Source of the DNA: a virus
Length of the DNA: 37,004 nt
IMG/VR virus record: IMGVR_UViG_3300027963_000158
Location: 1 to 37,004 of that record
Reading direction: 5' to 3' (one strand)
Position 1 is the first letter of the stretch. Each line of letters begins with the position of its first letter. The notes below the pieces were generated by a model, which worked only from the letters and a program-made list of their open reading frames with translations, did not search any database and was not told where the DNA came from. Position numbers and translations under genes: made by a program. Positions 4,567-21,296 of this stretch are shown here, in pieces.

Positions 4567-7053
4567 ATGAGTATTGAACAATCATTGAGCCAAGCCCCAA
4601 TGGGTTTAAACGACCTAGAGCTTGACAACACACCAGTCCTTGAGATTGAGATTGAGAATCCAGAAGGGGTGCGTTTAAACATGGACGGCATGGAGATAGA
4701 TCTCATGCCAGATGAGGAAGAAGGCTTTGGGGACAACCTTGCCGAATACATGGACAAAGGTGAGTTGGAGAAGATTGCCAGCGACTTGATTGAAATGGTG
4801 GACTCAGATATTAATTCCAGAAAAGACTGGGTTGATATGTATGTCAAAGGCCTAGATGTTTTGGGAATGAAATATGAAGAGAGAACGGAGCCTTGGCTCG
4901 GTGCTTGTGGTGTCTTTTCCACCGTACTCACCGAAGCGGCAGTTAGGTTTCAAAGTGAGACTATTATTGAAACTTTTCCAGCGCAAGGGCCGGTTAAAAC
5001 AGAAATTATCGGCGCAATTGATCGTCTTAAAGAGGAGGCGGCGGAGCGTGTCAAAGATGACATGAACTACAAGCTCACGGAAGGTATGCCTGAGTACCGT
5101 CCTGAGCATGAAAGAATGCTCTACTCCCTAGGTTTGGCCGGAGCGGCTTTCAAGAAAGTCTACTACGACCCCTCTATGGGCCGTCAGGCATCCATCTTTA
5201 TCCCTGCTGAAGATGTGATCATCCCTTACGGTGCTTCCAGCGCCATGACATCCGAGCGTGTTACGCACATCATGCGTAAGACCAAGAATGACATCCGCAA
5301 GCTTCAAGTCTCGGGTTTCTATGTAGATGAGGATCTTGGCGATCCCCTCCAGTTTTACACTGACGTTGAGAAGAAGAAGGCTGAAGATCAAGGCTACAAC
5401 CTCTCAGATGATGACCGCTACCAGATCTATGAGATCCACGTAGACTACGACTTACCGGGTTATGAAGATGAAGACGGGATTGCTCTTCCCTACGTCGTTA
5501 CCTTAGAGCGTGGGACTACAAAAATTCTTGCTATCCGCCGTAACTGGGATGAGGATGATGAGCACCGTTTAAAGCGCCAGCATTTTGTCCAGTACACCTA
5601 CGTACCGGGATTTGGTGCTTATGGCCTTGGATTAATCCATTTGATCGGTGGATACGCCCGTGCAGGCACATCCTTAATCCGTCAGTTGGTAGACGCAGGT
5701 ACTCTGTCTAATCTGCCCGGTGGATTAAAAACCCGTGGACTGAGGATCAAAGACGACGACACCCCAATCAATCCCGGTGAGTTTAGGGATGTGGACGTAC
5801 CAAGCGGGTCAGTCAAAGAGAACATCATGGCCCTGCCATACAAGGAACCCTCTCAGGTTCTATTGGCTCTCTTAAACCAGATCACAGACGAAGGTCGGAG
5901 ACTTGGATCCATCGCAGATATGAACATCAGCGATATGTCTGCCAACGCCCCTGTAGGTACAACTCTGGCCCTGCTTGAGAGACAACTCAAAACAATGTCT
6001 GCGGTACAGGCTCGTGTTCATTACTCAATGAAACAAGAGTTTAAACTCCTCAAGTCAATCATCAGGGACTACACCCCAGAGTCTTATGAGTACACACCTG
6101 TTGCAGGAACGCCACAGGCTAAACGCTCTGATTACGACATGGTGGATGTGATACCCGTATCAGATCCTAACTCAGCCACGATGGCCCAAAGGATCATGCA
6201 GTATCAAGCTGTGATCCAGTTAGCTCAGGGTGCTCCTCAGATCTATAACCTACCAGTCCTGCACCGCCAGATGATTGAAGTTCTAGGTATTAAGAACGCA
6301 GACAAGCTAGTACCTATAGACGATGACATGACCCCCAGAGATCCTATCTCCGAGAACATGGCATTCCTTACAGGTAAACCTACAAAGGCTTTCATCTATC
6401 AGGATCATGATGCACACATAGCTGTACATACATCCATGATGCAAGATCCCATGGTTATGGGTCAGATGGGCCAGAACCCCATGGCTCAACAGATGCAGGC
6501 CGCAATCATGGCCCACGTAGCTGAACACATTGCCTTCCAGTACCGTTCCAAGATTGAACAACGCCTTGGAGCGACTCTACCCAAACCAGACATTGAAATG
6601 CCTGAGGAGGTGGAAGTTCAGTTGTCCAAACTTGTGGCTCAAGCGGCGGCTCAGTTGCTTCAGATCAACAAGGGCCAAGCGGCTCAACAACAAGCCCAAC
6701 AGCAGATGCAAGACCCCGTCATGCAGATGCAACAGGCAGAGCTTCAGATCAAGCAACAAGATGCTCAAACCAAAGCTCAAAAGGTTCAGGGAGAGCTTGC
6801 CATCAAGCAAGCAGAACTGCAACTCAAGGCTCAAGATATGGCATCTAAACAAGGCGAAGACCCTGCCATGGCCGCACAGCGCCAGCAACAGGAAATTGCC
6901 ATGGAAGCAATGAGGCATCAAGCCGAATTGCGTCAGGCTGAACAAACCCACCAGCAGTCTTTGTCTCACAACCAACAGACGCAGGATTTACAGGCTAAAC
7001 AACAACTTCTTCAAATGCTTATTAACTCGAAAAACCAACCGAAAGGTGAATGA
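4567..7053 (+). CDS. Portal protein
   Basis: An 828-residue protein forming the ring at one capsid vertex through which DNA passes, and onto which the connector is built. Its length and its conserved core (YGLGLIHLIGG near 352, then VKENIMALPYKEPSQVLLAL and VGTTLALLERQLKTMSAVQA) match the P22-like portal type found in many podoviruses. The C-terminal quarter (about 645-828) is extremely Gln/Ala/Met rich and strongly helical, like the P22 barrel region, and probably forms a long coiled barrel. It follows terL by eight bases with a GGAAC site at 4559-4563. The acidic N-terminus (residues 15-60) is unusual in charge. Confidence 0.9.
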   Translation: MSIEQSLSQAPMGLNDLELDNTPVLEIEIENPEGVRLNMDGMEIDLMPDEEEGFGDNLAEYMDKGELEKIASDLIEMVDSDINSRKDWVDMYVKGLDVLGMKYEERTEPWLGACGVFSTVLTEAAVRFQSETIIETFPAQGPVKTEIIGAIDRLKEEAAERVKDDMNYKLTEGMPEYRPEHERMLYSLGLAGAAFKKVYYDPSMGRQASIFIPAEDVIIPYGASSAMTSERVTHIMRKTKNDIRKLQVSGFYVDEDLGDPLQFYTDVEKKKAEDQGYNLSDDDRYQIYEIHVDYDLPGYEDEDGIALPYVVTLERGTTKILAIRRNWDEDDEHRLKRQHFVQYTYVPGFGAYGLGLIHLIGGYARAGTSLIRQLVDAGTLSNLPGGLKTRGLRIKDDDTPINPGEFRDVDVPSGSVKENIMALPYKEPSQVLLALLNQITDEGRRLGSIADMNISDMSANAPVGTTLALLERQLKTMSAVQARVHYSMKQEFKLLKSIIRDYTPESYEYTPVAGTPQAKRSDYDMVDVIPVSDPNSATMAQRIMQYQAVIQLAQGAPQIYNLPVLHRQMIEVLGIKNADKLVPIDDDMTPRDPISENMAFLTGKPTKAFIYQDHDAHIAVHTSMMQDPMVMGQMGQNPMAQQMQAAIMAHVAEHIAFQYRSKIEQRLGATLPKPDIEMPEEVEVQLSKLVAQAAAQLLQINKGQAAQQQAQQQMQDPVMQMQQAELQIKQQDAQTKAQKVQGELAIKQAELQLKAQDMASKQGEDPAMAAQRQQQEIAMEAMRHQAELRQAEQTHQQSLSHNQQTQDLQAKQQLLQMLINSKNQPKGE

Positions 7054-7247
7054 TGAATCCTCTGCTTGAAAGTTTAAACAAGAAGCTTGATGAACACCTC
7101 AAGCAGTTGATTCAGATTGTCAGTGAGGGTGGTGCTAAATCCCACGATCACTACAAAGAACTGTGCGGCAATATCCGAGGTCTGCAAACCGCGCAGTATG
7201 AAATTGCTGACCTTGTGCGAAAAACGAAAGAGTATGAAGATGACTGA
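7050..7247 (+). CDS. Small hypothetical protein between portal and co-chaperonin (65 aa)
   Basis: A 65-residue highly helical protein, probably a single coiled coil (LNKKLDEHLKQLIQIVSEG, then LQTAQYEIADLVRKTKEYEDD). It starts with ATGATG overlapping the portal stop and its end overlaps the start of the GroES-like gene, so all three are probably translationally coupled. I do not recognise a named family. The context suggests a small head-assembly accessory protein. A GTTTAAAC palindrome lies near its start at 7072-7079. Confidence 0.75.
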   Translation: MMNPLLESLNKKLDEHLKQLIQIVSEGGAKSHDHYKELCGNIRGLQTAQYEIADLVRKTKEYEDD

Positions 7248-7644
7248 CTTTGATGTTAGTGCGGTGGATCTTAGTGGAGTGCTTAACACCTCCATCGAAG
7301 AGAAAGCCAAACAAGTGCCCGATCCGGCCACTTACCACCTCCTCTGTATGCTTCCCAAAGCAGAAGAAGAGTTTAGCGAAACAGGTATCCTTAAATCTGC
7401 AACTGCGATGTACCACGAGGAGCTTCTTTCCCCCGTGTTATTTGTAGCCAAGATTGGCCCCGATGCGTTTGGAGATAAAGCCCGATTCCCTTCTGGCCCG
7501 TCCTGTAAGGTGGGAGACTTTGTGTTAGTACGTCCTAACACGGGAACCCGCATGAAGATTCACGGTACGGAGTGGAGACTCATTAATGACGACTCAGTGC
7601 AGGCGGTAGTTCAAGACCCCCGTGGCATTCAACGTCCAACTTAA
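7240..7644 (+). CDS. GroES-like co-chaperonin
   Basis: A 134-residue protein with the beta-barrel co-chaperonin pattern. ETGILKSATA (47-56) occupies the place of the GroES mobile loop with its IVL-like GIL tripeptide. VLFVAKIGPDAFGD (66-79), SGPSCKVGDFVLVRPNTGT (85-103) and EWRLINDDSVQAVV (111-124) then follow the GroES order of strands, including the K-x-G-D-x-V-L turn. Phage proteins of this kind (T4 Gp31, RB49 CocO) replace GroES on host GroEL to fold the capsid protein; its location between portal and scaffold fits that. The first 25 residues are an extra N-terminal extension. The start at 7240 is chosen over 7234 for spacing from AAAGAG. Confidence 0.8.
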   Translation: MTDFDVSAVDLSGVLNTSIEEKAKQVPDPATYHLLCMLPKAEEEFSETGILKSATAMYHEELLSPVLFVAKIGPDAFGDKARFPSGPSCKVGDFVLVRPNTGTRMKIHGTEWRLINDDSVQAVVQDPRGIQRPT

Positions 7645-7653
7645 GGAGAAATC

Positions 7654-8601
7654 ATGGCTGAAATCGAAAAGACTGAATTTGAGTTCCCTGATGAAAAGGA
7701 AGAGAACCCCCGTAAGGGCGGTAAAGTTGTAGATGCTGAACCAGAAATTGAGGTGGTAGACGATACCCCCGAAGATGACAAGTACAGAACGCCTATGGCT
7801 GAACCCCCGCAGGATCCCACAGATGAAGAGTTAGCAACCTATTCAGAGAGTGTAAAGAATAGGTTTAAACACTTTACCAAGGGCTACCACGAGGAACGTA
7901 GGGCTAAGGAGTCTGCTCAACGAGAAAAAGATGAGGCAATTAGGTTTGCCCAGTCTATGGTTGAGGAGAACAAAAAGCTCAAAGGTTCTGTTAATCAGGG
8001 ACAGACTGTTCTACTGGAGCAGGCTAAGAAAGTTATTACTGGCGAGATTGAAGAGGCCAAGCGCCTTTACAAGGAAGCCTACGAGTCTGGAGATGCAGAT
8101 AAGCTGTTGGATGCTCAGGAAGCACTCACTACCGCTAGGATCCGCGCAGATAAAGTAAATAATTTTAGGCCTGCCCCTTTACAGGAAGAAGAAACTCCTG
8201 TACAAATCACCCAACAGGCTCCACAGCCTGCACCCGTGGACGAAAAACTATCTGCATGGCAAGACCAAAATCGATGGTTCGGTAGCAACAAACGGATGAC
8301 TTCATACGCCCTAGGGTTGCATGAAGAGCTTGTGGAGAGTGGTGTACGGGTTGGCAGTGACGAATACTATAAACGTATAGACACTGACATCCGCGAAAGA
8401 TTTCCCGACCAAATTGGAGTCGGGGAGTCCGTTGATGCGAAACCTCAACGTACCAAATCCAATGTTGTTTCACCTGCAACCCGTAGTACAGCGCCTAAAA
8501 AGATCGTACTTACGCAGTCACAAGTGAATCTCGCCAAGCGGTTAGGACTGACAAATGAACAGTATGCCCGTGCGGTTGCAAATGAAATGAGGAAAATATA
8601 A
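7654..8601 (+). CDS. Probable capsid scaffold protein
   Basis: A 315-residue acidic, helical protein placed just ahead of the capsid genes, the usual position of a scaffold. Residues 1-60 are acidic and disordered. About 60-170 is a long charged coiled coil (KESAQREKDEAIRFAQSMVE and following). A Pro/Gln-rich linker follows (about 172-195), and a basic C-terminal helical segment (about 265-315, LTQSQVNLAKRLGLTNEQYA) resembles the C-terminal coat-binding helix-loop-helix of scaffold proteins. Function is from position and shape rather than clear sequence homology. AAGGAG precedes the ATG. Confidence 0.75.
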   Translation: MAEIEKTEFEFPDEKEENPRKGGKVVDAEPEIEVVDDTPEDDKYRTPMAEPPQDPTDEELATYSESVKNRFKHFTKGYHEERRAKESAQREKDEAIRFAQSMVEENKKLKGSVNQGQTVLLEQAKKVITGEIEEAKRLYKEAYESGDADKLLDAQEALTTARIRADKVNNFRPAPLQEEETPVQITQQAPQPAPVDEKLSAWQDQNRWFGSNKRMTSYALGLHEELVESGVRVGSDEYYKRIDTDIRERFPDQIGVGESVDAKPQRTKSNVVSPATRSTAPKKIVLTQSQVNLAKRLGLTNEQYARAVANEMRKI

Positions 8602-9053
8602 TGGAAAAATCTGCTCGTACAGGCCGTGACCTGAGTACCCGCGAAGTTTCGGAGCGTCCAAAGCAATGGATGCCACCAAAACTACTACCTGATCCCAACC
8701 CGGAAGAAGGTTATGCGTTTCGCTGGATTCGGATTGCAGTGCAAGGAAAAGATGATGCCACGAACTATTCCTCAAAGCTTGCCGAGGGCTGGGAACCTGT
8801 TAAGGCTTCCGATCACCCCGAGATACGTCTGTTCAATGCCACAACGGCAAAGTTCCCGGACAGTATCGAAGTGGGAGGTTTGTTGCTTTGCAAAACCCCA
8901 GTAGAGTTTACTGAACAGCGTGATGCTTACTACCGCCAACAAGCGGAAGCGCAAATGCAGTCAGTGGACAATACTTACATGCGAGAGAACGATCCGAGGA
9001 TGCCTATGTTCAAAGAACGTAAGTCCACGGTCACTTTCGGTAAAGGTGTTTAA
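8601..9053 (+). CDS. Conserved head-region hypothetical protein (150 aa)
   Basis: A 150-residue soluble protein whose ATG overlaps the scaffold stop by one base. It has a well-folded look in the middle: FRWIRIAVQGKDDATNYSSK, then a segment resembling an Arg/Lys-rich beta sandwich, then GGLLLCKTPVEFTEQRDAYY followed by a helix and a basic tail. I recall similar proteins next to scaffold and capsid genes in uncultured aquatic podoviruses, without a known function. It is probably a minor head or assembly protein. No catalytic motif is seen. Confidence 0.7.
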   Translation: MEKSARTGRDLSTREVSERPKQWMPPKLLPDPNPEEGYAFRWIRIAVQGKDDATNYSSKLAEGWEPVKASDHPEIRLFNATTAKFPDSIEVGGLLLCKTPVEFTEQRDAYYRQQAEAQMQSVDNTYMRENDPRMPMFKERKSTVTFGKGV

Positions 9054-9070
9054 CTTTTTGGAGTCTATAG

Positions 9071-9685
9071 ATGGCATACCCTACCATTGATAAGACGTAT
9101 GGTTTCAAGCCAGTCAATCGACTGGATGGTCTACCCTACGCCGGAGCGATCCGTCAAATCCCAATCGCGGCCGCTTACGCTACAGCAATTCTAAACGGTG
9201 ATACTGTGCAAGTGGATACAAACGGCTATATTGTAGCCGCTTCAACCACTGATTCAGGCAAAATCGTTGGTGTGCTGGTTGGCTGTTCTTACATCAACTC
9301 GTTGAGTCAACCGACGTTTAGTCAGTACTACCCAGCCGCAGTTTCAACTACTACCGCATTGGCTTTTGCCTATGTTGTGGATGATCCTAGTGCTGTGTTT
9401 AAGGTCTGCGCTACTGTTGCCGCTGGTTCCACTCCTACGGCTTATAGCCGTGCGATTGTTGGCGCTAACGTGGCTTTGGTTGCAACCGTTGGTTCTACCA
9501 CCACTGGTGATTCGTATTATGGTATTGACGGTTCTTCCGCCGCTACCACTGCGACACTTCCCGTCCGTGTTGTTGACGTTGTGCCCGATACTGCGACTGG
9601 CTTGCCAACCGTAGCCGCCACGACATATTACGAGTTTCTCGTTAAATTCAACACCGCGCAGTACAACAATACTACCGGTATTTAA
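9071..9685 (+). CDS. Probable capsid decoration or head structural protein
   Basis: A 204-residue Ala/Thr/Val-rich, beta-rich protein directly upstream of the capsid gene, the usual site for a head decoration protein. The N-terminal half (GFKPVNRLDGLPYAGAIRQI, then a VQVDTNGYIVAA turn) has the appearance of the small beta-barrel head proteins that bind outside the capsid lattice. No signal peptide or enzymatic motif is present. GGAG at 9060-9063 sits at suitable spacing. It could alternatively be a minor capsid or fibre-like component. Confidence 0.65.
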   Translation: MAYPTIDKTYGFKPVNRLDGLPYAGAIRQIPIAAAYATAILNGDTVQVDTNGYIVAASTTDSGKIVGVLVGCSYINSLSQPTFSQYYPAAVSTTTALAFAYVVDDPSAVFKVCATVAAGSTPTAYSRAIVGANVALVATVGSTTTGDSYYGIDGSSAATTATLPVRVVDVVPDTATGLPTVAATTYYEFLVKFNTAQYNNTTGI

Positions 9686-9698
9686 GGAGTAACTTACC

Positions 9699-10610
9699 AT
9701 GGCTATTTCACGCGCACAACTATTGAAAGAGTTGCTCCCCGGTCTGAACGCATTGTTTGGTCTGGAATACGCCAAATACGGCGAAGAGCACAAAGAGATC
9801 TACGAAACAGAGACATCTGAGCGTAGCTTTGAAGAAGAGACAAAACTGTCTGGTTTCTCTGCCGCTCCTGTCAAAAACGAGGGTTCTGCCATCGCTTATG
9901 ACAATGCACAGGAAGCATGGACTGCACGTTACACCCACGAAACCATTGCGATGGGATTTTCCATCACAGAGGAAGCTGTGGAAGATAACTTGTATGACTC
10001 TTTGTCTTCACGTTACACCAAGGCTTTGGCCCGTGGTATGTCCTACACAAAGCAAGTTAAGGCCGCTTACGTCCTGAACAACGCTTTCACTGGTGGCCCT
10101 ACTTATGGCGACGGCGTGGTGCTTTGTTCTACTGCTCACCCCTTGGTTTCCGGTGGTACTAACAGCAATCGTCCTACTACAGGCGCTGACTTGAATGAAA
10201 CATCGTTGGAAAACGCTGTTATTCAGATCGCCGCTTGGACAGACGAGCGCAGTTTGCTGATTGCCGCTAAACCCAAGAAATTGGTGGTTCCTCCTTCATT
10301 GATGTTCGTTGCAACTCGTCTCCTTGAGACTGAATTGCGTGTTGGCACAACCGACAACGATATCAATGCATTGAAGAACAACGGCTCTATCCCTGAAGGA
10401 TATTGCGTTAACCACTTCTTGACCGACACAAACGCTTGGTTCTTGTTGACTGACGTTCCTAACGGTCTGAAGCACTTCGTGCGTACCCCCATGTCTACAG
10501 GCATGGACGGTGACTTTGACACAGGTAACGTTCGTTACAAAGCCCGTGAGCGTTACAGCTTCGGCGTGTCAGATCCATTAGGTATCTTCGGTTCACCCGG
10601 TTCGTCCTAA
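9699..10610 (+). CDS. Major capsid protein
   Basis: A 303-residue protein that fits an HK97-fold major capsid protein of the Mu gpT-like type. The N-terminal helix (ISRAQLLKELLPGLNALFGL) and segments such as GFSITEEAVEDN, AKPKKLVVPPSLMFVATRLL and a C-terminal beta-rich part ending RYKARERYSFGVSDPLGIFG match that group by pattern. It follows scaffold and decoration genes and is closed by a strong terminator, as expected for the most abundant virion protein. AAGGAG precedes the ATG. Codon use is noticeably regular, consistent with high expression. Probably the client of the GroES-like protein. Confidence 0.85.
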   Translation: MAISRAQLLKELLPGLNALFGLEYAKYGEEHKEIYETETSERSFEEETKLSGFSAAPVKNEGSAIAYDNAQEAWTARYTHETIAMGFSITEEAVEDNLYDSLSSRYTKALARGMSYTKQVKAAYVLNNAFTGGPTYGDGVVLCSTAHPLVSGGTNSNRPTTGADLNETSLENAVIQIAAWTDERSLLIAAKPKKLVVPPSLMFVATRLLETELRVGTTDNDINALKNNGSIPEGYCVNHFLTDTNAWFLLTDVPNGLKHFVRTPMSTGMDGDFDTGNVRYKARERYSFGVSDPLGIFGSPGSS

Positions 10611-10621
10611 TCGACGAAAAG

Positions 10622-10648
10622 AAAAAGGAGGCTTCGGCCTCCTTTTTT
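10622..10648 (+). terminator. Intrinsic terminator after the capsid gene
   Basis: An 11-bp perfect stem (AAAAAGGAGGC, 10622-10632, with GCCTCCTTTTT, 10637-10647) around the stable TTCG tetraloop, ending in a six-T run. This is a classical rho-independent terminator 11 bases after the capsid stop. Confidence 0.92.
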
Positions 10649-10649
10649 G

Positions 10650-10678
10650 TTGCATTGGTTTAAACGTAGTGGTATAAA
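10650..10678 (+). promoter_or_regulatory. Possible sigma70-type promoter after the capsid terminator
   Basis: TTGCAT (10650-10655) and TATAAA (10673-10678) are separated by 17 bases and lie just after the capsid terminator, with no gene until 10768. The palindrome GTTTAAAC (10658-10665) falls in the spacer. It could re-start transcription for the downstream structural genes. The 157-base gap otherwise holds nothing I recognise. Confidence 0.45.
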
Positions 10679-10767
10679 CATATTAATCCGGGCTTTCCGG
10701 TGTATCAAACTGTCCCGGCAGACAGCATACTGATTGATGCACTTAACTTGTATGTAAGGAACTCATC

Positions 10768-11295
10768 ATGGGATTCGCAACTCACCTTGGCCCTTGGCTC
10801 TTGGGCACTGTTAAAAACACTACCGGCACTACTGCTGGAACAATCCAAAACACTGGCGCTACTTCGGTAACTCAGACCAAAAAAGTTGTTTATGACGGCG
10901 CTCTTTATACTGCCGATACAACAACTACTTTGTTTACGCTTCCAGCAGGCGCACAAATTACCAGTATCCACATTGATACTTTGGTAGCGTTTACTGGTTC
11001 TACTGCCGCAAATATGTCTTTAGGCATTACAGGCTCAACAGCTTTGTATTTTGCTTCTACAGATATTACAACTCAAGGTCGTTTAGCTAATACTGGCGCG
11101 GCGGCTAAGTTGGGAAATTGGGCTGGCGCGGCTACTACAGCTTCTCCTAACGGTGCTGGTATTGGAGCTACAGACGTAATAATTATTGCTACGGTACGTC
11201 CTACCGTTGCCAACGTAACTGTTGGTACTGTGCAATACACCGTTGTGTACTCTGTAGCAGAGTCTAATGGCACTCAATCTCCAGCGTCTGCTTAA
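10768..11295 (+). CDS. Structural protein, beta-rich (175 aa)
   Basis: A 175-residue Thr/Ala/Gly-rich protein with alternating polar and hydrophobic residues typical of phage beta-sandwich virion proteins. The middle segment (YTADTTTTLFTLPAGAQITS) followed by VAFTGSTAANMSLGITG resembles a common small structural-protein fold in aquatic phages that carries LFTLPAG-type strands. It probably contributes to the head surface or a fibre. AAGGA precedes the ATG. No enzymatic motif is seen. It follows the capsid terminator and probably uses its own promoter. Confidence 0.65.
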   Translation: MGFATHLGPWLLGTVKNTTGTTAGTIQNTGATSVTQTKKVVYDGALYTADTTTTLFTLPAGAQITSIHIDTLVAFTGSTAANMSLGITGSTALYFASTDITTQGRLANTGAAAKLGNWAGAATTASPNGAGIGATDVIIIATVRPTVANVTVGTVQYTVVYSVAESNGTQSPASA

Positions 11296-11303
11296 TTGAT
11301 CTA

Positions 11304-11322
11304 GGGGGCTTCGGCCCCCGTT
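11304..11322 (+). terminator. TTCG-loop hairpin, weak terminator or attenuator
   Basis: A six-bp GC stem, GGGGGC (11304-11309) with GCCCCC (11314-11319), around TTCG, followed by only GTTT. The stem is strong but the T-run short, so partial termination, attenuation or mRNA end protection is more likely than full termination. It lies between two structural genes. Confidence 0.6.
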
Positions 11323-11338
11323 TACAAGGAGATTGATT

Positions 11339-11884
11339 ATGGCAATGCAATATGATGTCCTAGTCGGGCACTTAAACGTTAGCGGTATTGTGGTGAATGG
11401 CCCAAATCGTTTAAAAGGTATTATTTACACCAGCGGCACTTCCGCAGGCACAATCAATATTTTTGACACGGTGACAACCCCTACTGCAATTACTTCGTAT
11501 GTTCGTAGTTCTGCCGGGGTAATTACGGTTACTTTAGCGTCGCATGGATTGGTTACAGGCCAAACTATTGGTTTGACTTTTAGTTCTGGTACGGGCGGAT
11601 ACGGCACAAATGGTAACTATGTTGTTACCGTGTTAACTTCTAGTACATATACGGTACAAGATATTAACATTGCCGCCATTACTTCTGGCACGGGCGGTAC
11701 GCAAACTGTATCCGGCGGGCGTTGGATATTCTCTTTGGACACAGCCGCAACAACTACTTCGGGTCAAGCGGCGGCTGTAAACATTGTGATTCCCGGTGAA
11801 GGCATAAAAGTTAACACTGGAATTTATTGCCAACTTGGTACTGCTGGTACAAACCAAAACGGCGTAACGGTGTTCTATGGCTGA
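11339..11884 (+). CDS. Structural protein with inserted Ig-like module (181 aa)
   Basis: A 181-residue virion protein. The flanking parts (about 1-47 and 125-181) look like one small beta-sandwich: RLKGIIYTSGTSAGTINIFDT at the front and RWIFSLDT, VNIVIPGEGIKVNTGIYCQLG and VTVFYG at the end. They seem to be interrupted by a module at about 48-124 with VITVTLASHGLVTGQTIGL, NGNYVVTVLTSSTYTV. That module recurs in the nozzle protein at 27361. Start 11339 is chosen from AAGGAG; a TTG six bases earlier is less likely. Its stop overlaps the glycosyltransferase start. Confidence 0.65.
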   Translation: MAMQYDVLVGHLNVSGIVVNGPNRLKGIIYTSGTSAGTINIFDTVTTPTAITSYVRSSAGVITVTLASHGLVTGQTIGLTFSSGTGGYGTNGNYVVTVLTSSTYTVQDINIAAITSGTGGTQTVSGGRWIFSLDTAATTTSGQAAAVNIVIPGEGIKVNTGIYCQLGTAGTNQNGVTVFYG

Positions 11885-12611
11885 AACAAAACAGACAACA
11901 TTGATGGGGCGCAATCTGTTCATAGGCATTCCAGCTTATGACGGCAAGCTGAACATTAAGACCGCATTTGCACTGGCGCAGTTAATGCCCAAAGCGATGA
12001 GTCTTGGTGTGTCCGTCACGTTGTCTGATTTGTCTAATTGCTCAATTATTACCATGGCACGAAATGCCTTGGTACACGAATTCTTAAAAACAGACTGCAC
12101 AGAGCTTCTGTTTATTGATGCTGATCTAATTGTTAATGCTGATGACATTTTGCGTTTGATGGCCCAAAGCGGCGATAAAGATATCACTGCCGGAGCTTAT
12201 CCACGCAGAGCTAAAGATGCAAAGTTTTTTGCGGATGTGTATTTTGATGCCAACGGCGACCTAGAGTTTGATGGCTCGTTAATGCGCTTAGAACGTGCAC
12301 CTACTGGGTTTATGTTGATTCAGCGTCATGTTATTGAGACGTTGGTAAAAGCACATCCAGAGTGGACTTATGAGAAGTCCCCAACAGAAAAAATGTCGGC
12401 AGTGTTTGACTTCGCCATTGTGAACGGCAAGTATGTTGGCGAAGACTATTTGTTCTGCGACAGGGCTACGCAAATGGGCTTTAAAGTTTATATTGATGTA
12501 GACATTAGCTTGCCACACGTAGGACAAGAAAGATTTGAGCGTAACTTCCGAGAAGAAGTTGTAATGCCAATGCTAGAGAACATTCACCAGTCAAGATTAA
12601 AGGTGGCGTAA
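11877..12611 (+). CDS. GT-A fold glycosyltransferase
   Basis: A 244-residue putative glycosyltransferase of the GT-A (GT2-like) type. The N-terminal strand LFIGIPAYDG (14-23), the ARNALVHEFL helix (61-70) and the DXD metal and nucleotide-sugar site in LLFIDADL (77-84; D81, D83) are in the expected order. ITAGAYPRR and a GEDYLFCDRA segment (acceptor-side acidic residues) follow. Donor and acceptor cannot be read from sequence. Sitting within late structural genes, it might glycosylate a virion protein, or alter the host surface late in infection. Its start lies within the previous gene and its TAA overlaps the next ATG. Confidence 0.8.
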   Translation: MAETKQTTLMGRNLFIGIPAYDGKLNIKTAFALAQLMPKAMSLGVSVTLSDLSNCSIITMARNALVHEFLKTDCTELLFIDADLIVNADDILRLMAQSGDKDITAGAYPRRAKDAKFFADVYFDANGDLEFDGSLMRLERAPTGFMLIQRHVIETLVKAHPEWTYEKSPTEKMSAVFDFAIVNGKYVGEDYLFCDRATQMGFKVYIDVDISLPHVGQERFERNFREEVVMPMLENIHQSRLKVA

Positions 12612-12871
12612 TGGCGACAAAGAAAAAAGGCCCCTCATTAGCTATTGGTCGTGGTGAAAAATTACCTGTATCCAAGGGCGCTGGTCTAACTGCCAAGGGT
12701 CGAGCCAAGTACAACGCCGCTACAGGCAGTAATTTAAAAGCTCCACAACCTCAAGGTGGTGCAAGGAAAGACTCATTCTGCGCTCGGATGTCAGGAATGC
12801 CCGGCCCAATGAAAGATGAAAAAGGTAGACCTACCCGTAAGGCGGCTTCCCTTGCGAGGTGGAAATGCTAG
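12611..12871 (+). CDS. Small basic conserved phage protein (DUF6321-like)
   Basis: An 86-residue, strongly basic protein with two Cys. The pattern of LTAKGRAKYNAATGSNLKAP (26-45), followed by KDSFCARMSGMPGPM and KGRPTRKAASLARWKC at the end, is a phage-wide conserved small protein that I recall as DUF6321. Its function is unknown. The order of blocks (AGLTAKGRAKYN, SFCARMSG, RKA..RWKC) is complete, so it appears intact. The basic charge would suit nucleic-acid or capsid interior contact, which is speculation. Confidence 0.75.
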   Translation: MATKKKGPSLAIGRGEKLPVSKGAGLTAKGRAKYNAATGSNLKAPQPQGGARKDSFCARMSGMPGPMKDEKGRPTRKAASLARWKC

Positions 12872-13104
12872 ATTTAAACACCGCATGGTCAGCAGTCCTA
12901 ACTTTAGTGTTGGGATTAATTGGCTACATGATGAATGAAAAGTTCAGGGAATTGACTCGTATCACTATCCTGTTGAACAAAACACGCGAGGAGGTTGCCC
13001 GTGATAACGTTACTCAAGCAGAAATTGACAGAATTACGAACCACATTGACCAACGCTTTAACAAGCTTGAAGCAAAAATTGACCAGCTTATTCAAAAGGG
13101 GTGA
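12865..13104 (+). CDS. Small membrane protein with coiled coil (79 aa)
   Basis: A 79-residue protein with one N-terminal membrane segment (about 7-23, AWSAVLTLVLGLIGYMM) and a charged C-terminal part that looks like a coiled coil (TQAEIDRITNHIDQRFNKLE). The topology resembles small phage inner-membrane proteins, including spanin-like or holin-accessory proteins, but no family is clear. The start at 12865 overlaps the previous stop; a GTG at 12859 is an alternative. It is separated from the lysis module by about 12 kb, so a lysis role is doubtful. Confidence 0.65.
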   Translation: MLDLNTAWSAVLTLVLGLIGYMMNEKFRELTRITILLNKTREEVARDNVTQAEIDRITNHIDQRFNKLEAKIDQLIQKG

Positions 13105-13110
13105 GTAATT

Positions 13111-13548
13111 ATGAACCCCGCAACAAAAGCCGCTTTATTTTTAGCCGACAAAGCTGGTATTGATGTTCCTAAACCCGTTAGAGTGTTAGCCGATCCCATT
13201 GGCTCTGCTATTGATTATTTTGGCCCAAAAATTAATGAAGCTTTAGGCACAGCCCCCGGCACAGCAGAGGCAGTAGCCAACCCTAAAGGGTTCTTAAAAG
13301 ATCTAGCCAAAGATGTTGGTAAAGATTATTTAAGAGAAAGAAGCGAAGTTCCCGTAGAAGACCGCAGTATTTCATCATCTAGTGATAACGGCGGCTATGA
13401 CAAATTAGCTCTCAGTACTTACGCAGATGACGATATAGATGCGTTTAAACGTGGCGGTAAAGTTAAATCTGCGGCAAAATCTAGCACAGCATCCCGTAGG
13501 GGTGATGGTATTGCTCAACGGGGTAGAACTCGCGGAAGGATGCTCTAA
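13111..13548 (+). CDS. Small protein with C-terminal GG box and ADGIA-type tag
   Basis: A 145-residue protein with no known domain. The N-terminus (residues 1-75) is helical with a run of Pro and Ala. The C-terminus carries two short motifs that recur in neighbouring genes: the aromatic box FKRGGKV (112-118) and the basic tag TASRRGDGIAQRGRTRGRML (126-145). The tag ends the protein. It is the first of at least five genes in 13.1-18 kb carrying this tag. AAAAGGGG precedes the ATG. Its TAA overlaps the next ATG. Function unknown. Confidence 0.75.
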   Translation: MNPATKAALFLADKAGIDVPKPVRVLADPIGSAIDYFGPKINEALGTAPGTAEAVANPKGFLKDLAKDVGKDYLRERSEVPVEDRSISSSSDNGGYDKLALSTYADDDIDAFKRGGKVKSAAKSSTASRRGDGIAQRGRTRGRML

Positions 13549-13913
13549 TGCCAAGCACTAGCAAAAAACAACACAATTTTATGGAAGCGGTGGCTCACAA
13601 CCCAGCGTTTGCCAAGAAAGCAGGCGTACCCATGTCAGTGGGCAAAGATTTTTCAAAGGCCGACAAAGGCCGTAAATTCTCAAAAGGTGGAACTATGGCT
13701 AAGAGCGACATGAAAGAAGACATGGCAATGGACTTGAAACAAGACAAGGCCATGATGCAAAAGGCTGTAAACAAGCATGAAAGCCGTTTACACAAGGGTC
13801 AGCCCATGACTAAGCTTGCTTCTGGCGGCTACACACGGGCGGCTGATGGTTGCGCCACAAGAGGCAAGACCAAAGGCACACAGATTAAAATGATGGGCGG
13901 CGGCGCTTGCTAA
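13548..13913 (+). CDS. Small basic protein with ADGIA-type tag (121 aa)
   Basis: A 121-residue protein. The N-terminal block SKKQHNFMEAVAHNPAFAKK (5-24), continuing to VGKDFSKADKGRKF, is a motif I recall from many uncultured phage proteins without known function. Then come FSKGGTM (44-50), an acidic/Met-rich helix, LASGG (90-94), the tag TRAADGCATRGKTKGTQIKM (96-115) and a MMGGGAC end. In this copy the tag's Ile is replaced by Cys. It is coupled to the gene before it by TAATG. Confidence 0.75.
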   Translation: MPSTSKKQHNFMEAVAHNPAFAKKAGVPMSVGKDFSKADKGRKFSKGGTMAKSDMKEDMAMDLKQDKAMMQKAVNKHESRLHKGQPMTKLASGGYTRAADGCATRGKTKGTQIKMMGGGAC

Positions 13914-13922
13914 GGATTAATC

Positions 13923-14816
13923 ATGAAAAAACCTATGAAATTTAAACGTTACGATGAAGGCGGTGAAGTCGCTGACAAAGAAGCTGGTCTTAAGGCCTCT
14001 AAAGGTGAGGATGTAGGCTTCTTCCAGCGTTTACGCATGGGCAATATAGACGATCCCAACTCTGAGGCATACAAACGCTTCGGTGCAGGCCGTGGACGCT
14101 CAGAACGCAATCCCGTAAACGAGTCTGTTTCTGTCAATGAGCCTATGGCAGTAGGCAGACCAACAGCACAACCTAATCCTATTTTTGCCGCTGGCCTAGA
14201 GCAAGGTAAACGCCAGCCCTCTGGCGATGCAAGTGTGGCTGAAGAATCTGCAAGACGACCACGCAACCCAGAAGCGGAGCAGGAAGCTGACAATCCAAGA
14301 AGGACAGCTTCCAAACCTTCCACATCAAAAACTGAAAGCAAGATTCAATCAGCGCCTAAAACGCCAGCTTATGTCCAACGCTATACAGAAGAAATGATGG
14401 AAGCGGATAACCCAAGCGTTAAAGCTGAAAAATCACCTGCGGCAAAACCAAAGCCTGCGGCAGAAACCTCTACTGCAAAACCAAAACCTGTTTCGGAAGC
14501 GCCAAAGTCTAAAACTAGCATGACACCGTTTCCAAAGAGTGACGAAAGTCGCCGCATGATGAGTGAGGGTGTTGGAAAAGTAGTTTCTGGAGCCACTTCT
14601 GGGATTGCTGATTACCTTGGAAGTCTTGAATCTACTTCTCGTTATATGAACAAGAAAAAGAAAGCCGAAGGTTTTGGCCCTTTTGACAAGGGCAGTGGTG
14701 AATATAAACGTGGCGGCAGTGTCAAAAAGATGGCTTCCGGTGGCTCTGTAAGTTCAGCTTCTCGCCGTGCTGATGGTATTGCCACTAAAGGCAAGACCCG
14801 TGGCCGCATGTGCTAA
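13923..14816 (+). CDS. Low-complexity protein with GG boxes and ADGIA-type tag (297 aa)
   Basis: A 297-residue protein with a long disordered middle (about 60-235) rich in Pro, Ala, Ser, Lys and Glu, including several AAKPKPAAETSTAKPKP-like segments. It starts with a basic run and YDEGGEVADKE (10-20), a block nearly identical to one in the 15230 gene (FDEGGSVADKE). It ends with YKRGGSVKKMASGGSVSS (261-278) and the tag SASRRADGIATKGKTRGRMC (278-297). This gives the clearest pair of GG box and tag in one protein. AAGGAT precedes the start. Function unknown. Confidence 0.75.
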   Translation: MKKPMKFKRYDEGGEVADKEAGLKASKGEDVGFFQRLRMGNIDDPNSEAYKRFGAGRGRSERNPVNESVSVNEPMAVGRPTAQPNPIFAAGLEQGKRQPSGDASVAEESARRPRNPEAEQEADNPRRTASKPSTSKTESKIQSAPKTPAYVQRYTEEMMEADNPSVKAEKSPAAKPKPAAETSTAKPKPVSEAPKSKTSMTPFPKSDESRRMMSEGVGKVVSGATSGIADYLGSLESTSRYMNKKKKAEGFGPFDKGSGEYKRGGSVKKMASGGSVSSASRRADGIATKGKTRGRMC

Positions 14817-14825
14817 GGAATAATT

Positions 14826-15227
14826 ATGTCAAGAGAAACTACATATTACGATGATCAGTCTAAAGGTGGCGGTAGCGGCCTTGGTACGATGCTTGGTATG
14901 AAAGGTGCTGTAGCAGGCACTGCGGTAGGAGCAAACTATCTAATGGATCGCAAAGCCGAAAAAGACGCTCAAGAAAAGCGTGAAGCTGAAGCCGAAATGA
15001 AGCGTGAATCCCGCAATGTTCCTAAACCTTCCAACTTTGATGCAATTGAAGAATCCAAGCAAGAAGTTGCCGATGCTCGTGCTCGTAAAAAGATTAGTGA
15101 CATGGGTTATGCCAAGGGCGGTAAAGTTGGTTCAGCCTCCCGCCGTGCAGATGGCATTGCTACTAAGGGTAAAACCAAGGGCACAATGATTGCCATGTGT
15201 GGTGGTGGGATGATGAAAAGGAAGTAA
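14826..15227 (+). CDS. Small protein with GG box and ADGIA-type tag (133 aa)
   Basis: A 133-residue protein. An N-terminal Gly-rich segment (15-45, including LGTMLGMKGAVAGTAVGANY, weakly hydrophobic) is followed by a charged helix (about 45-85). It then has YAKGGKV (95-101), the tag SASRRADGIATKGKTKGTMI (103-122) and a short MCGGGMMKRK end. AAGGA precedes the ATG. The tag is almost identical in protein, but not in codons, to the 13923 gene, so it has been held by protein-level selection. Function unknown. Confidence 0.75.
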   Translation: MSRETTYYDDQSKGGGSGLGTMLGMKGAVAGTAVGANYLMDRKAEKDAQEKREAEAEMKRESRNVPKPSNFDAIEESKQEVADARARKKISDMGYAKGGKVGSASRRADGIATKGKTKGTMIAMCGGGMMKRK

Positions 15228-15229
15228 TC

Positions 15230-15715
15230 ATGATGGCAAGCCGTGGAATGGGAGCCGTTCTCCCAAGCAAAATGCCAAAAGGGAGCCGTAAGGCTCGCCG
15301 TGATGACACCAACTTCACTCAGTTTGATGAAGGCGGTTCTGTCGCTGACAAAGAAAAAGAGAAAGAAGATGCGGATGCTGTTAAGTTTGGCGTTTTAAAT
15401 CCACGTTTAAACATGGCTAAAGGCATGAAAGAACTTGGTGGTCGTTTAACTGCTGAAAAGCAATTAGGCCCAAACACTTCATTGCAAGCTTACTTAGATG
15501 CCAAGATTGGCAACCGTGGCGCTGGAATTCCGGGCGGTGGCGTTCAGTTAACACACCGATTTGCTGAAGGTGGTGCTGTTGGCCTTTATGCCAACATTAA
15601 CGCCAAGAAAAAGCGGATAGCCGCTGGTTCTAAGGAAAAGATGCGTAAGCCCGGTCAGAAGGGTGCTCCTACCGCTGACGCTTTTGTTCAATCTGCAAAG
15701 ACTGCTAAAAAATGA
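15230..15715 (+). CDS. Small basic virion-type protein with GG boxes (161 aa)
   Basis: A 161-residue basic protein. Residues 1-30 are Lys/Arg-rich. FDEGGSVADKE (32-42) matches the block in the 13923 gene. A beta-hairpin-like stretch follows (MKELGGRLTAEKQLGPNTSL, then a strand near 103-110). FAEGGAVGLYANINAKKKRI (111-130) leads to a C-terminal SKEKMRKPGQKGAPTADAF. That last block is one I recall widely in phage proteins, of unknown function. The start at 15230 is favoured by AAAAGGAAG; an ATG at 15233 is also possible. Function unknown. Confidence 0.75.
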   Translation: MMASRGMGAVLPSKMPKGSRKARRDDTNFTQFDEGGSVADKEKEKEDADAVKFGVLNPRLNMAKGMKELGGRLTAEKQLGPNTSLQAYLDAKIGNRGAGIPGGGVQLTHRFAEGGAVGLYANINAKKKRIAAGSKEKMRKPGQKGAPTADAFVQSAKTAKK

Positions 15716-16377
15716 ACCCCTTATACAACAGACTAATGGCTGAAAAAGGCGCACCTCGTGCCGCCAATAATCCAAATACAACCCAGCTTCGTGGCGCTCC
15801 CATGAACTTGCGCTCTGCCATGCAAAAGTATGCTGATGGCGGCGGGGTTGGATCTCCTCCTCCAACGGCTGGAGACATCAATAGTTTTGTGCAAGCAAAT
15901 ATTGGGAATCCTCAAGCAATAGCTGACGCGGCTCGTCAATATGGGGTGAGTATGGACGACCTTGCAGGCGCAACAGGTTACTCATCTAGTCAAATTAGCG
16001 ATTACTTTGGAAATGCAGGAATTAATCCTTTTGAAGCTCGTCCCTCCCTACCACCTGTAGAAGGATCTGGTACTTTTAATGTTCCTCCACAGCCAGCAGA
16101 TATCCCGCTAACATACATGCCCAATGAAGGTTTGAATGAGCCTGATATGCCACGGACAACTGGACAGCCGCCATATGATTATGGCAGTGTACCGGAGTTA
16201 AACCGTAGCGCAATAGATGCCGCTAGATTGGCAACTCAAAATCCGCCTCAAGTTGATTATTCTTCAATTCCACCCGAGTTGTTGAAAAAAATAAAAGAAA
16301 TGAGTAATCCGTTTAGCTCTCAACTAACGCAACAAGATGATTTAGCAAAGCTTATTCAGCTTTTGAAAGCAAGATAA
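15712..16377 (+). CDS. Hypothetical protein with one helical module (221 aa)
   Basis: A 221-residue protein that begins with ATGA overlap. It carries YADGGGV (40-46), then a helical module at about 55-90 (INSFVQANIGNPQAIADAAR, then YGVSMDDLAGATGY). The same module occurs four times in the long protein at 31224. The rest (100-195) is Pro-rich and probably disordered, with a helical C-terminus (LLKKIKEMSN and following). The shared module links this gene to the ejection-type proteins at 31-34 kb. It ends with TAA overlapping the adaptor gene. Function unknown. Confidence 0.7.
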   Translation: MNPLYNRLMAEKGAPRAANNPNTTQLRGAPMNLRSAMQKYADGGGVGSPPPTAGDINSFVQANIGNPQAIADAARQYGVSMDDLAGATGYSSSQISDYFGNAGINPFEARPSLPPVEGSGTFNVPPQPADIPLTYMPNEGLNEPDMPRTTGQPPYDYGSVPELNRSAIDAARLATQNPPQVDYSSIPPELLKKIKEMSNPFSSQLTQQDDLAKLIQLLKAR

Positions 16378-17303
16378 TGACCACTACCGGCTCAACCCTG
16401 TTCAATATGGACTTCACGGAGATTGCCGAGGAAGCATGGGAGAGGGCTGGCCGGGAAATGCGTTCAGGTTATGACTTGCGTACAGCACGTAGGTCAATGA
16501 ACCTAATGACCATAGAGTGGCAGAATAAAGGTATCAACATGTGGACGATGGAGCAGGGCTTCATTAACCTGACTGCTGGCTTGCCTACATATGCCCTACC
16601 AGTGGATACAATTGACCTGTTAGAGCATGTTATTCGCACAGGGCAGAACACAGCCTCTACACAGGCAGATCTAACCATCAGCCGTATTAGTGTTTCTACC
16701 TACGCAACCATTCCAAACAAACTTCAGCAAGCAAGGCCTATCCAAGTCTGGATTCAAAGGCTTTCTGGACAGGTTAACCCAACAACTGCGGTTTTGGATG
16801 GAGCCATTACTGCCACAGACACCACAATTACTTTGAACACTGTAGTTGGATTAGCTGGGTCTGGATTTATCCGCATTGACTCTGAAGATATTTACTACAC
16901 TTACATCTCAAGCAATGTTCTTGGTGGTGTATTCCGTGGACAAAACAATACAACTGCCGCCGCTCATACAACTGGGACTGCAATTTATGTTCCTCAGCTT
17001 CCTGCGGTAACTCTTTGGCCTACGCCAGACAATAGCACTCCTTATCAGTTTGTGTATTGGAGACTGCGCCGGGTTCAGGATGCTGGCGCTGGTGTAGAAA
17101 CCGCAGATATGAACTTCCGTTTCTTGCCTTGTTTGGTTGCCGGATTGGCATACCACATTGCAATTAAGACACCAGATTTAATGCCCCGCATTCAGATGCT
17201 TAAGCAGATCTATGACGAGACATTTGAGATAGCGGCAGGGGAAGACAGGGAGAAGGCTCCCTCTAGGTTTGTACCCCGTCAGATGTATATTGGTGGTTCC
17301 TAA
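16377..17303 (+). CDS. Head-tail adaptor (P22 gp4-like) with Ig-like insertion
   Basis: A 308-residue connector protein expected to attach to the portal ring and extend the DNA channel. The first about 130 residues are mostly helical with WERAGREMRSGYDLRTARRS (21-40) and TIEWQNKGINMW, and the end (about 205-308) again matches the adaptor core: VTLWPTPDNSTPYQFVYWRL, then LAYHIAIKTPD. About 135-205 is an inserted beta module (ITATDTTITLNTVVGLAGSG, IRIDSEDIYYT, GQNNTTAAAHTTGTAIYVP), a pattern often seen as an Ig-like addition. The assignment rests on pattern recall and position after the capsid genes. Confidence 0.75.
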   Translation: MTTTGSTLFNMDFTEIAEEAWERAGREMRSGYDLRTARRSMNLMTIEWQNKGINMWTMEQGFINLTAGLPTYALPVDTIDLLEHVIRTGQNTASTQADLTISRISVSTYATIPNKLQQARPIQVWIQRLSGQVNPTTAVLDGAITATDTTITLNTVVGLAGSGFIRIDSEDIYYTYISSNVLGGVFRGQNNTTAAAHTTGTAIYVPQLPAVTLWPTPDNSTPYQFVYWRLRRVQDAGAGVETADMNFRFLPCLVAGLAYHIAIKTPDLMPRIQMLKQIYDETFEIAAGEDREKAPSRFVPRQMYIGGS

Positions 17304-17716
17304 TGAGTAATCGTTTTGCTTCTGGCAAAAAAGCGATTGCCATGTGCGACCGCTGTGGGCAACAGTTTTTACTTAAGACGCTTAAGACAGAGATCATTAA
17401 GCAACGCAAGTACCAACTGTTGGTCTGCCATGAATGCTGGGATCCAGATCAACCTCAATTGATGTTGGGAACATTCCCTGTAGAAGATCCTCAGGCTTTG
17501 CGTAACCCACGTAGAGACACAACATATGTAACGGCTGGCACAAACGGCCTACAGCTTTATCCTGTAAATAGTCCTTCCGGAGGTTTTGTTACGGGTGGAT
17601 CTCGGGATATTCAATGGGGTTGGTATCCGGTGGGTGGGGCTAGTAATTTTGATGCAGGATTGACCCCCAACTACTTGGTGGCAACGACATTTGTTGGTAC
17701 AGTATCGATATCTTAA
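17303..17716 (+). CDS. Zinc-ribbon connector-region protein (137 aa)
   Basis: A 137-residue protein with a four-cysteine zinc ribbon: C15-D-R-C18 and C42-H-E-C45. The spacing is right for one bound zinc. The remaining half is beta-prone and Gly/Thr-rich. Small zinc-ribbon proteins often sit beside adaptor genes in uncultured podoviruses; I recall the type but not a named family. The start overlaps the adaptor stop by TAATG. It may be a minor connector or tail-completion protein. Confidence 0.7.
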   Translation: MSNRFASGKKAIAMCDRCGQQFLLKTLKTEIIKQRKYQLLVCHECWDPDQPQLMLGTFPVEDPQALRNPRRDTTYVTAGTNGLQLYPVNSPSGGFVTGGSRDIQWGWYPVGGASNFDAGLTPNYLVATTFVGTVSIS

Positions 17717-17727
17717 GGAGTTTAAAC

Positions 17728-17913
17728 ATGGCATACACAAGATCAGCCGACGGCATTGCTAAAAAAGGCAAAACCGAGGGTAAAAATTTGGGCAACAGTG
17801 GCCCCGTGCAAAAAGAAATGATGGGTGGAAAAAAGACTGCTGGCGTTACAGGCATGGAAATGCGTAAGGTCGGTCGTAACTTAGCCCGTGCAATGAACCA
17901 AAAGCGAGGTTAA
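17728..17913 (+). CDS. Small protein with N-terminal ADGIA-type tag (61 aa)
   Basis: A 61-residue basic protein. Unlike the others it carries the tag at its N-terminus: AYTRSADGIAKKGKTEGKNL (2-21), followed by KEMMGGKKTAG. That rules out a strictly C-terminal signal. AAGGAG lies at 17715-17720, and the palindrome GTTTAAAC (17720-17727) fills the space between it and the ATG at 17728. It is clearly a gene because of the ribosome site and the conserved tag, despite its size. Function unknown. Confidence 0.7.
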   Translation: MAYTRSADGIAKKGKTEGKNLGNSGPVQKEMMGGKKTAGVTGMEMRKVGRNLARAMNQKRG

Positions 17914-17915
17914 TC

Positions 17916-18182
17916 ATGGCTACATTTAGCAAAAAGATGATGGGCAAAGAAGTTGGCGATGCCGCAGTCTATGCCACTCCACACACCATGACCGGCAAAG
18001 AAGTTAAAGCTTCTACCAATCCCGGCAAAGAACCAAATCGTAGCAAGCTTGATACGCTTGATATGAGTGTTGGTGCTTTTAGCAAATCGGCTGGTGATGA
18101 GCAACCCAAGACAACTGGCATCAAAATGCGTGGCGCGGGTGCGGCGACTAAAGGCTTTATGTCTAGAGGCCCAATGGCATGA
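17916..18182 (+). CDS. Small conserved phage protein with C-terminal motif (88 aa)
   Basis: An 88-residue protein that starts two bases after the previous stop. It is polar and basic, with a C-terminal block GIKMRGAGAATKGFMSRGPM (68-87) that I recall as a recurrent ending in phage proteins. The block has a similar basic Gly-Lys-x-x-Arg-Gly texture to the ADGIA tags but is not the same motif. Its end overlaps the second adaptor start by ATGA. Function unknown. Confidence 0.7.
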   Translation: MATFSKKMMGKEVGDAAVYATPHTMTGKEVKASTNPGKEPNRSKLDTLDMSVGAFSKSAGDEQPKTTGIKMRGAGAATKGFMSRGPMA

Positions 18183-20552: not shown

Positions 20553-21296
20553 ATGTCAGCGTGGGGTTCCGGCGCATGGGGTGATGGTGGCTGGGGCTTC
20601 ACGGCTTTTTCAAGCACGGTTACTGAAAGTGCAACAGGCACAGATGCGGTAACGGCAATAGCTAGTTTAAGTGCCCCGGTTAGCGAGACTGCTACGGGAA
20701 CGGATGCTGTAACTTCCTTGGCTTCAGTAAATGCGGTAGTCGCAGAAACGGCTACAGGTACAGATGTTGTTGTAGCGGCGCAAGGGTTTGAGGCGGCAGT
20801 TACTGAAACTGGTACGGGTAGCGATGCAATAACAGCATTACTAACGTACAACCCAACCATAACGGAGACAGCAACTGGGGCGGATGCGGTATCAAGTGTG
20901 CCGATATATGCGGCTGTAGTTGCAGAAACTGCAACAGGTACGGATGCTGTAAATTCTAGTTTTACATTCTTTGGGTCTATAACTGAAACAGCTACTGGGA
21001 CGGACGCAGTAGTAAGTAGTTTGTCGGTCAGTTCAGACATTACTGAAAGTGCGACAGGAACCGAAGCGGTAACGGCAAAGGCAACTTTTTTAGGAGCGGT
21101 AGCAGAAACTGCAACGGGTACAGATGTAGATGCGGCGGCTGTGGCTTTCATAGCTTCTCTTACTGAGTCAGCAACTGGGACAGATTCAATCACGGCACGG
21201 TTTTTTTGGGAAATTATTGATGACACGCAGACTGCAAACTGGCAGAATATCAGCAACACACAAACAGCGGCTTGGACTGCTGTGGTAACGACTTAG
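20553..21296 (+). CDS. Tail protein made of ten 20-residue repeats
   Basis: A 247-residue protein. Residues 1-24 have a Trp-Gly cap (AWGSGAWGDGGWG). From residue 25 on, a unit of exactly 20 residues repeats ten times, each beginning with a version of ETATGTDAV (ESATGTDAV, ETGTGSDAI, ETATGADAV and so on) and continuing with variable hydrophobic residues. The C-terminus (DDTQTANWQNISNTQTAAWT) is a short conserved tail. The regular period suggests a solenoid or fibrous stalk. Function is probably a fibre spacer; repeat number may vary between relatives. Confidence 0.7.
   Translation: MSAWGSGAWGDGGWGFTAFSSTVTESATGTDAVTAIASLSAPVSETATGTDAVTSLASVNAVVAETATGTDVVVAAQGFEAAVTETGTGSDAITALLTYNPTITETATGADAVSSVPIYAAVVAETATGTDAVNSSFTFFGSITETATGTDAVVSSLSVSSDITESATGTEAVTAKATFLGAVAETATGTDVDAAAVAFIASLTESATGTDSITARFFWEIIDDTQTANWQNISNTQTAAWTAVVTT
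20625..21191 (+). repeat. 60-bp in-frame tandem repeats
   Basis: Ten in-frame units of 60 bases lie within the 20553-21296 gene. The conserved ETATGTDAV part is encoded with many different synonymous codons (for example gctacgggaacggatgc versus gcaacaggtacggatgc), so the array is old at DNA level but constrained at protein level. Confidence 0.75.

Follow-up and report, generated by a model that had tools for sequence, protein, structure and literature searches.

Tagged genes of the head module

The window analyzed here, the whole stretch of DNA under study, is an IMG/VR virus record (IMGVR_UViG_3300027963_000158) of 37,004 bases, and it encodes five small proteins, T1 to T5, that share a short peptide, in the following called the tag. 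An earlier, sequence-only reading had placed this tag in the plus-strand genes starting at 13111, 13548, 13923, 14826 and 17728; all five copies were found, four at or near the C-terminus and one at the N-terminus, and a related C-terminal peptide of the next gene (17916–18182) had been overlooked. By composition, 8e-6 matches to the motif are expected in the window proteome, and shuffled proteomes yielded no match in 2000 trials.

T1 (13111–13548; 145 amino acids) possesses an Ala/Leu-rich N-terminal part, has no family match, and has homologues in three other loci (L095, L119, L093); its tag RGDGIAQRGRTRGRML (13498–13545) comprises 16 residues and runs up to the stop codon (motif match RRGDGIAQRGRTRGRML, then stop). 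T2 (13548–13913; 121 amino acids) consists of an N-terminal helical domain (residues 1–44), a variable middle, and the tag with an extension that is common to many relatives (RAADGCATRGKTKG-TQIKMMGGGAC; 13836–13910). T3 (13923–14816; 297 amino acids) is basic and of low complexity, and its tag RADGIATKGKTRGRMC (14766–14813) again reaches the stop codon (motif match RRADGIATKGKTRGRMC, then stop). T4 (14826–15227; 133 amino acids) carries the tag and an extension as RADGIATKGKTKG-TMIAMCGGGMMKRK (15144–15224; motif match RRADGIATKGKTKG, then 14 residues). The tag is the exact C-terminal end of T1 and T3, while 11 and 14 residues follow its last glycine in T2 and T4, respectively. T5 (17728–17913; 61 amino acids) bears the tag near its N-terminus (RSADGIAKKGKTEG, 17740–17781; motif match MAYTRSADGIAKKGKTEG), beginning four residues after the protein start, and T5-like genes sit between g17303 and g17916 in many relatives.

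The head module that frames these genes (4567–17716, plus strand) comprises genes for the portal (starting at 4567), a GroES-like protein (7117), a scaffold-like protein (7654), the major capsid protein (MCP; 9699), an adaptor (16377) and g17303; PHROG matches in the window identify TerS, TerL, the portal, and the major head protein (phrog_371). The tagged genes had been described as surrounding the head-tail connector genes, and this holds for the adaptor (16377–17303) and g17303 (17303–17716), with T1 to T4 upstream and T5 downstream of the pair; the portal itself is located away from them at 4567–7053. Gene content and order group the window with Phage DSL-LC04, Pelagibacter phages HTVC023P and HTVC027P, 023Pt_psg01, Planktothrix phage Pag-Yong1 and Roseobacter phage CRP-901, a lineage in which the terminase is followed by portal, GroES-like, scaffold-like, major capsid and cement genes, then by small genes and the adaptors.

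Form and distribution of the tag

A motif search over phages had been proposed to see where the tag clusters; it was run, revealed strongly positive clustering, and also gave a wider family (R..G[ICA]A.[KR]G) that had not been foreseen. When 2.9 million viral contigs (IMG/VR) were searched with a degenerate DNA pattern encoding ADGIA.[KR]G[KR]T, at least 120 stretches matched; at least 118 loci have the tag in an open frame, with at least 228 tags in total. Abundance and lineage confinement are judged from samples of this kind, each scan of the viral contigs having given at least about 120 stretches. Tagged genes usually number one to five per phage, counts that are lower bounds because most loci are fragments. 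A stricter pattern matched only two metagenome-assembled contigs in a species-level collection of bacterial and archaeal genomes, which suggests that the tagged phages are mainly lytic. Whole contigs, the longest of 87 kb, show a single cluster of tags; the only match outside it (DGFARHG) is not compatible with the tag, and a reversed control pattern gave one match versus 41 for the tag pattern.

The consensus of the tag is R-x-x-G-[I/C/A]-A-x-[K/R]-G-x7-COOH, 16 residues at the C-terminus, usually preceded by a glycine-rich GGxV linker and sometimes followed by an extension of about nine residues; in one gene family it is N-terminal. In type A, 163 of the complete proteins listed end exactly five residues past GKT. 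Type C (GGxVRGxGCAx[KR]G...) gave at least 119 matches, and exactly seven residues follow the last G in 90 of those listed; type D (RGxGAAx[KR]GxxFxGV) gave at least 122, and 120 of those listed end one residue later than type C. Types A, C and D thus have the same length, 16 residues from the arginine to the carboxyl end. When generic cores were sought in all loci with no end condition (713 listed), the stop codon followed seven residues on in 399 and eight in 181, totals that are shaped by the patterns used, with the stop codon being part of none of them. Type B is the related peptide of g17916 (17916–18182, plus strand; 88 amino acids), whose C-terminal 17 residues read RGAGAATKGFMSRGPMA (18129–18179). 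It is present in one gene per phage, adjoining the second adaptor, and was rejected as a second multi-copy tag on account of this single gene.

Neither Pfam nor PHROGs provided a match to the tag in T1 to T5, and a PDB profile search with the tag returned only repeats aligned with the GGxV linker and weak matches at the level of chance; a known folded domain, the finding that would have counted against a docking peptide, therefore did not emerge. The sequence-only reading had known of no described function, and none of six representative tag peptide strings was found in the literature searched. Neither the bare 25-mer nor T5 gave a tblastn match against named phages. Direct reading nevertheless disclosed divergent forms, two type D copies in Pelagibacter phage HTVC023P (gp32, gp51) and one type A-like copy in Planktothrix phage Pag-Yong1 (UMO75986.1). 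Both phages have the same head module, and their C-terminal peptides agree in length and pattern (RGVGAAIRGHKFIGVK, RGGGAAVRGMGFKGVF, GRDGCAKRGRTKGRFI); the proteins are annotated as hypothetical, and the peptide went unremarked. No virion proteomics of a tagged phage, HTVC023P and Pag-Yong1 included, was found in the literature searched. Phage DSL-LC04 (L126:1315–1542) is without a C-terminal tag and has an N-terminal relative, MAGRGMGCATRGGGAVESGP, which resembles T5.

Practically all tag matches fall in the head module of one podovirus-like lineage. In the mapped loci, the order is capsid, DUF6321, tagged genes, (g15236), adaptor 16377 and g17303, followed by (the N-terminally tagged gene), g17916 and adaptor 18179. 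Where the flanks are present in the mapped type A/B loci (n = 199), tagged genes lie between MCP/DUF6321 and the adaptors or beside g17303. The type C and D patterns name no lineage, and 235 of the 239 loci listed for them hold homologues of the same head genes, which ties the tag to one virion type; tagged genes are located there in the intervals TerL–portal, portal–GroES and capsid–adaptor, or adjacent to g17303. Of 55 loci that include everything from the capsid to the adaptor gene, 12 are devoid of canonical tags and the other 43 possess between one and five; most uncultured loci without a canonical tag have C-terminal variants at the same place, such as RGAGCAKKGVRPCKMM.

This genomic setting bears on two alternative explanations. 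According to one of them, the tag serves to fix minor virion components to the capsid shell or to the neck formed by portal and adaptor; the tagged proteins would be parts of the neck or decoration that remain with the particle and are not delivered. Tagged genes indeed adjoin the adaptors or lie between TerL and portal or portal and GroES, and tag distance shows a weak correlation with g17303 and the second adaptor. We nevertheless consider this explanation unlikely, as the number and identity of the tagged genes vary by phage (zero to five canonical tags between MCP and adaptor), their bodies are mostly basic and of low complexity, unlike symmetric structural parts, and several different proteins would find few sites at a neck. 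The other starts from the GroES-like gene in the same conserved module and proposes that the tag recruits an assembly or quality-control factor (e.g., GroEL together with the phage GroES, or a scaffold chaperone) to unstable, non-virion products of the head genes. Tag and GGxV linker may be likened to the GroES mobile loop in their glycine/alanine make-up. By reading, however, the IVL-like hydrophobic tripeptide of the GroES loop is absent from the tag, which has GIA or GCA flanked by charges, and the candidate loop of the phage GroES-like protein (TGILKSATAM) does not match it; moreover, there is little reason for one to five interchangeable clients. Such a recruitment is quite improbable in our view, and mimicry of the mobile loop was itself judged unlikely by reading, only the linker being similar.

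Modularity of the tagged proteins and selection on the peptide

Single-linkage clustering of the 327 tagged bodies listed gave 115 families, 91 of them singletons. Tagged pairs of the same genome belong to different body families in 250 of 282 cases, and the idea that they are paralogues derived by a single duplication was rejected on this ground. The sequences around the tag are thus unrelated, as had been noticed in the sequence-only reading. The DUF6321 protein of the window (12611–12871, plus strand; PF19846 profile match with E = 3e-23, found in this window gene only) is untagged, and its orthologues in seven other loci have the tag appended past the end of DUF6321, where others, including that of the window, stop. 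Comparison with the relative L010, whose adaptor gene is 89% identical to that of the window, is equally instructive: its T4 slot is occupied by an unrelated protein of 86 amino acids with the same tag, between flanks that are 90% and 97% identical, and in T3 the N-terminal part and the C-terminal tag are conserved and the middle is exchanged. Even loci with adaptors that are 90–100% identical still have few tagged bodies in common, a count that is biased by incomplete loci. T2 evolves under purifying selection (ratio of nonsynonymous to synonymous substitution rates, dN/dS, of 0.10 against L010). In orthologues with 20–60% identical bodies, the tags are 64–66% identical, and tag identity is 0.58–0.66 for bodies below 60%. 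That the tag is a linear address peptide on modular, unrelated bodies is well supported.

Since tagged genes are exchanged at this locus and the T3 tag, beside the swapped T4 slot, lies within DNA that is 90% identical, one might ask if the repeats are a DNA-level feature (a recombination, packaging or regulatory site) that is incidentally translated. At identical residues of two tags from the same genome, the codons differ in 54% (63% expected from body codon usage), so that it is the protein, not the DNA, that is conserved, in line with the earlier assertion that the peptide itself is selected. Together with the conservation of the reading frame and of the distance to the stop codon, this largely refutes a DNA-level feature and renders it highly improbable.

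Comparison of tags whose bodies are non-homologous gave 4.38 differences over 17 positions for the same genome and 5.80 for different genomes (p = 0.0002 by label permutation, none of 5000 reaching the observed uniformity), and a control segment 28–45 residues from the end displayed no within-genome effect. This uniformity fits a shared partner specific to each phage, with a contribution of common lineage history. Tag distance is weakly but significantly related to the distances of the candidate partners MCP, g17303, DUF6321 and the second adaptor (for g17303, a weak r of 0.30 in 22 genomes).

The tagged bodies are positively charged in 85% of cases and the tag has a mean charge of +4.4, whereas the window's main structural proteins, those of head and tail, are neutral or acidic. 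These charges would suit a basic, nucleic-acid-binding tail that coats or condenses packaged DNA, or acts on DNA or RNA in the cell, with no specific protein receptor. We find this improbable: strict conservation concerns D, G, [I/C], A, G and T, not the basic positions, which vary between K and R, and general charge needs no fixed C-terminal distance, no uniformity per genome, and no confinement to one head module.

Several neighboring sequences deserve mention in their own right. The basic, untagged g15236 (15236–15715, plus strand) has its last 44 residues in common with proteins of T7-like cyano- and pelagiphages; this C-terminal module (15581–15712; GLYANINAKKKRIAAGSKEKMRKPG..) is 68–82% identical in T7-like cyanophages, pelagiphages and roseophages, and in S-RIP2 it resides in another protein, encoded between the scaffold and capsid genes. 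The [FY]xxGG motif (often GGxV) found before the tag recurs in at least eight window proteins (13111–15715, 15712–16377, 31224–34052, 34064–35491), including g15236, g15712 and two large late proteins (31224, 34064), and the latter could be ejection proteins. Protein g17303 (17303–17716), encoded between both adaptor genes and present in most tagged loci, contains CxxC...CxxC pairs like those of a zinc ribbon. A glycosyltransferase-like gene (11877–12611; phrog_1574, weak phrog_12406) is part of the head module in certain phages of this lineage, and a tail-region protein (20553–21296) consists of repeated units of the type TETATGTDAV.

A putative docking peptide for capsid cargo

A Pfam/PHROG scan of ten long tagged proteins gave no informative function, recognizing nothing beyond the T2 domain and a single functionally uncharacterized family. 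The N-terminal 43 residues of T2 are 72% identical to PHIKZ165.1 of phage phiKZ (phrog_16759), and the domain constitutes the N-terminus of the jumbo-phage virion structural proteins GAP32_317 and CBB_322; for the latter, mass spectrometry of phage CBB virions yielded 30 unique peptides (PMC5259590). As a stand-alone protein, the domain (13548–13679) occurs in PHIKZ165.1 and in Stenotrophomonas phage BUCT555, and it moves between very different phages. In the AlphaFold model of T2, the N-terminal domain is ordered (predicted local distance difference test, pLDDT, of 75–89) and the tag is disordered (about 50), while that of T4 has low confidence throughout and is uninformative; Foldseek with T2 retrieved only phage homologues of the N-terminal domain.

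The idea of a common docking peptide fits the confinement of the tag to the head module of one lineage; its partner and the loading of the capsid, already suggested by the sequence-only reading, we infer. We regard it as quite conceivable, though by no means assured, that the tag serves as a docking peptide through which basic, interchangeable accessory proteins are loaded into the capsid. Its modularity, its fixed form, its restriction to the head module and its uniformity within genomes support this reading. Until docking, the tag would be flexible; its one partner would belong to the assembling head, with the inner face of the MCP, the scaffold, the portal and the adaptor as candidates; the docked tag would draw the basic cargo into the procapsid, where it would travel with the DNA. 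By analogy, the cargo may be delivered into the host at infection and may represent exchangeable early host-takeover or anti-defence proteins with a role like that of the T4 internal proteins.

Two well-known systems offer themselves for comparison. The capsid-targeting sequence of phage T4 (IPI-III, Alt) is an N-terminal peptide of about 10 residues that is removed by the gp21 protease. Like the tag, it is one short conserved peptide on small, basic, fast-evolving proteins, and the cargo varies among relatives; unlike it, the tag is mainly C-terminal (N-terminal in the T5-like genes only), comprises 16 residues, and is of unrelated sequence. A separate prohead protease gene was not recognized among the window proteins scanned. 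The encapsulin cargo-loading peptide is short, flexible and C-terminal, and it directs unrelated cargo proteins to an HK97-fold shell whose gene adjoins that of the cargo. The tag, too, is short, flexible and C-terminal on unrelated proteins, a likeness in the way of working; its sequence is different, and the shell encoded here is a phage head, with a major head protein gene (phrog_371) in a terminase-portal-capsid module. The tag would act in the manner of a capsid-targeting or cargo-loading peptide, yet it belongs to neither class, since position, sequence or shell differ.

Several points weigh against the loading of tagged proteins into the capsid. The virion evidence is indirect, coming through the T2 domain, and concerns myovirus proteins that lack the tag: PHIKZ165.1, GAP32_317 and CBB_322 are homologous to the T2 N-terminus but are untagged. 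The weak distance correlations single out none of MCP, g17303, DUF6321 and the second adaptor, and the similarity of tags within a genome could reflect shared lineage history. Furthermore, the N-terminal tag in one gene family and the C-terminal extensions in several others imply that recognition is not simply that of a free C-terminus. Delivery into the host is argued by analogy alone.

More tentatively, the tag could act as an address code at the C-terminus (R-x-x-G-[ICA]-A-x-[KR]-G-x7-COOH) that is common to a very large, uncultured aquatic podovirus-like lineage and by which this lineage loads exchangeable small host-takeover or anti-defence proteins into its virions. By this one motif, small phage proteins that lack annotation, hundreds in number, are assigned to a single functional class, for which a shared partner is predicted. 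As a virion-loading signal, the tag would lead directly to phage proteins that are injected, which are hard to find by sequence; the tagged genes would then form a searchable catalogue of such proteins, and the tag would provide a general packaging handle, a peptide for loading chosen cargo into heads. Should it instead be a neck or assembly signal, it would still open up the assembly of an abundant group of phages with few isolates.

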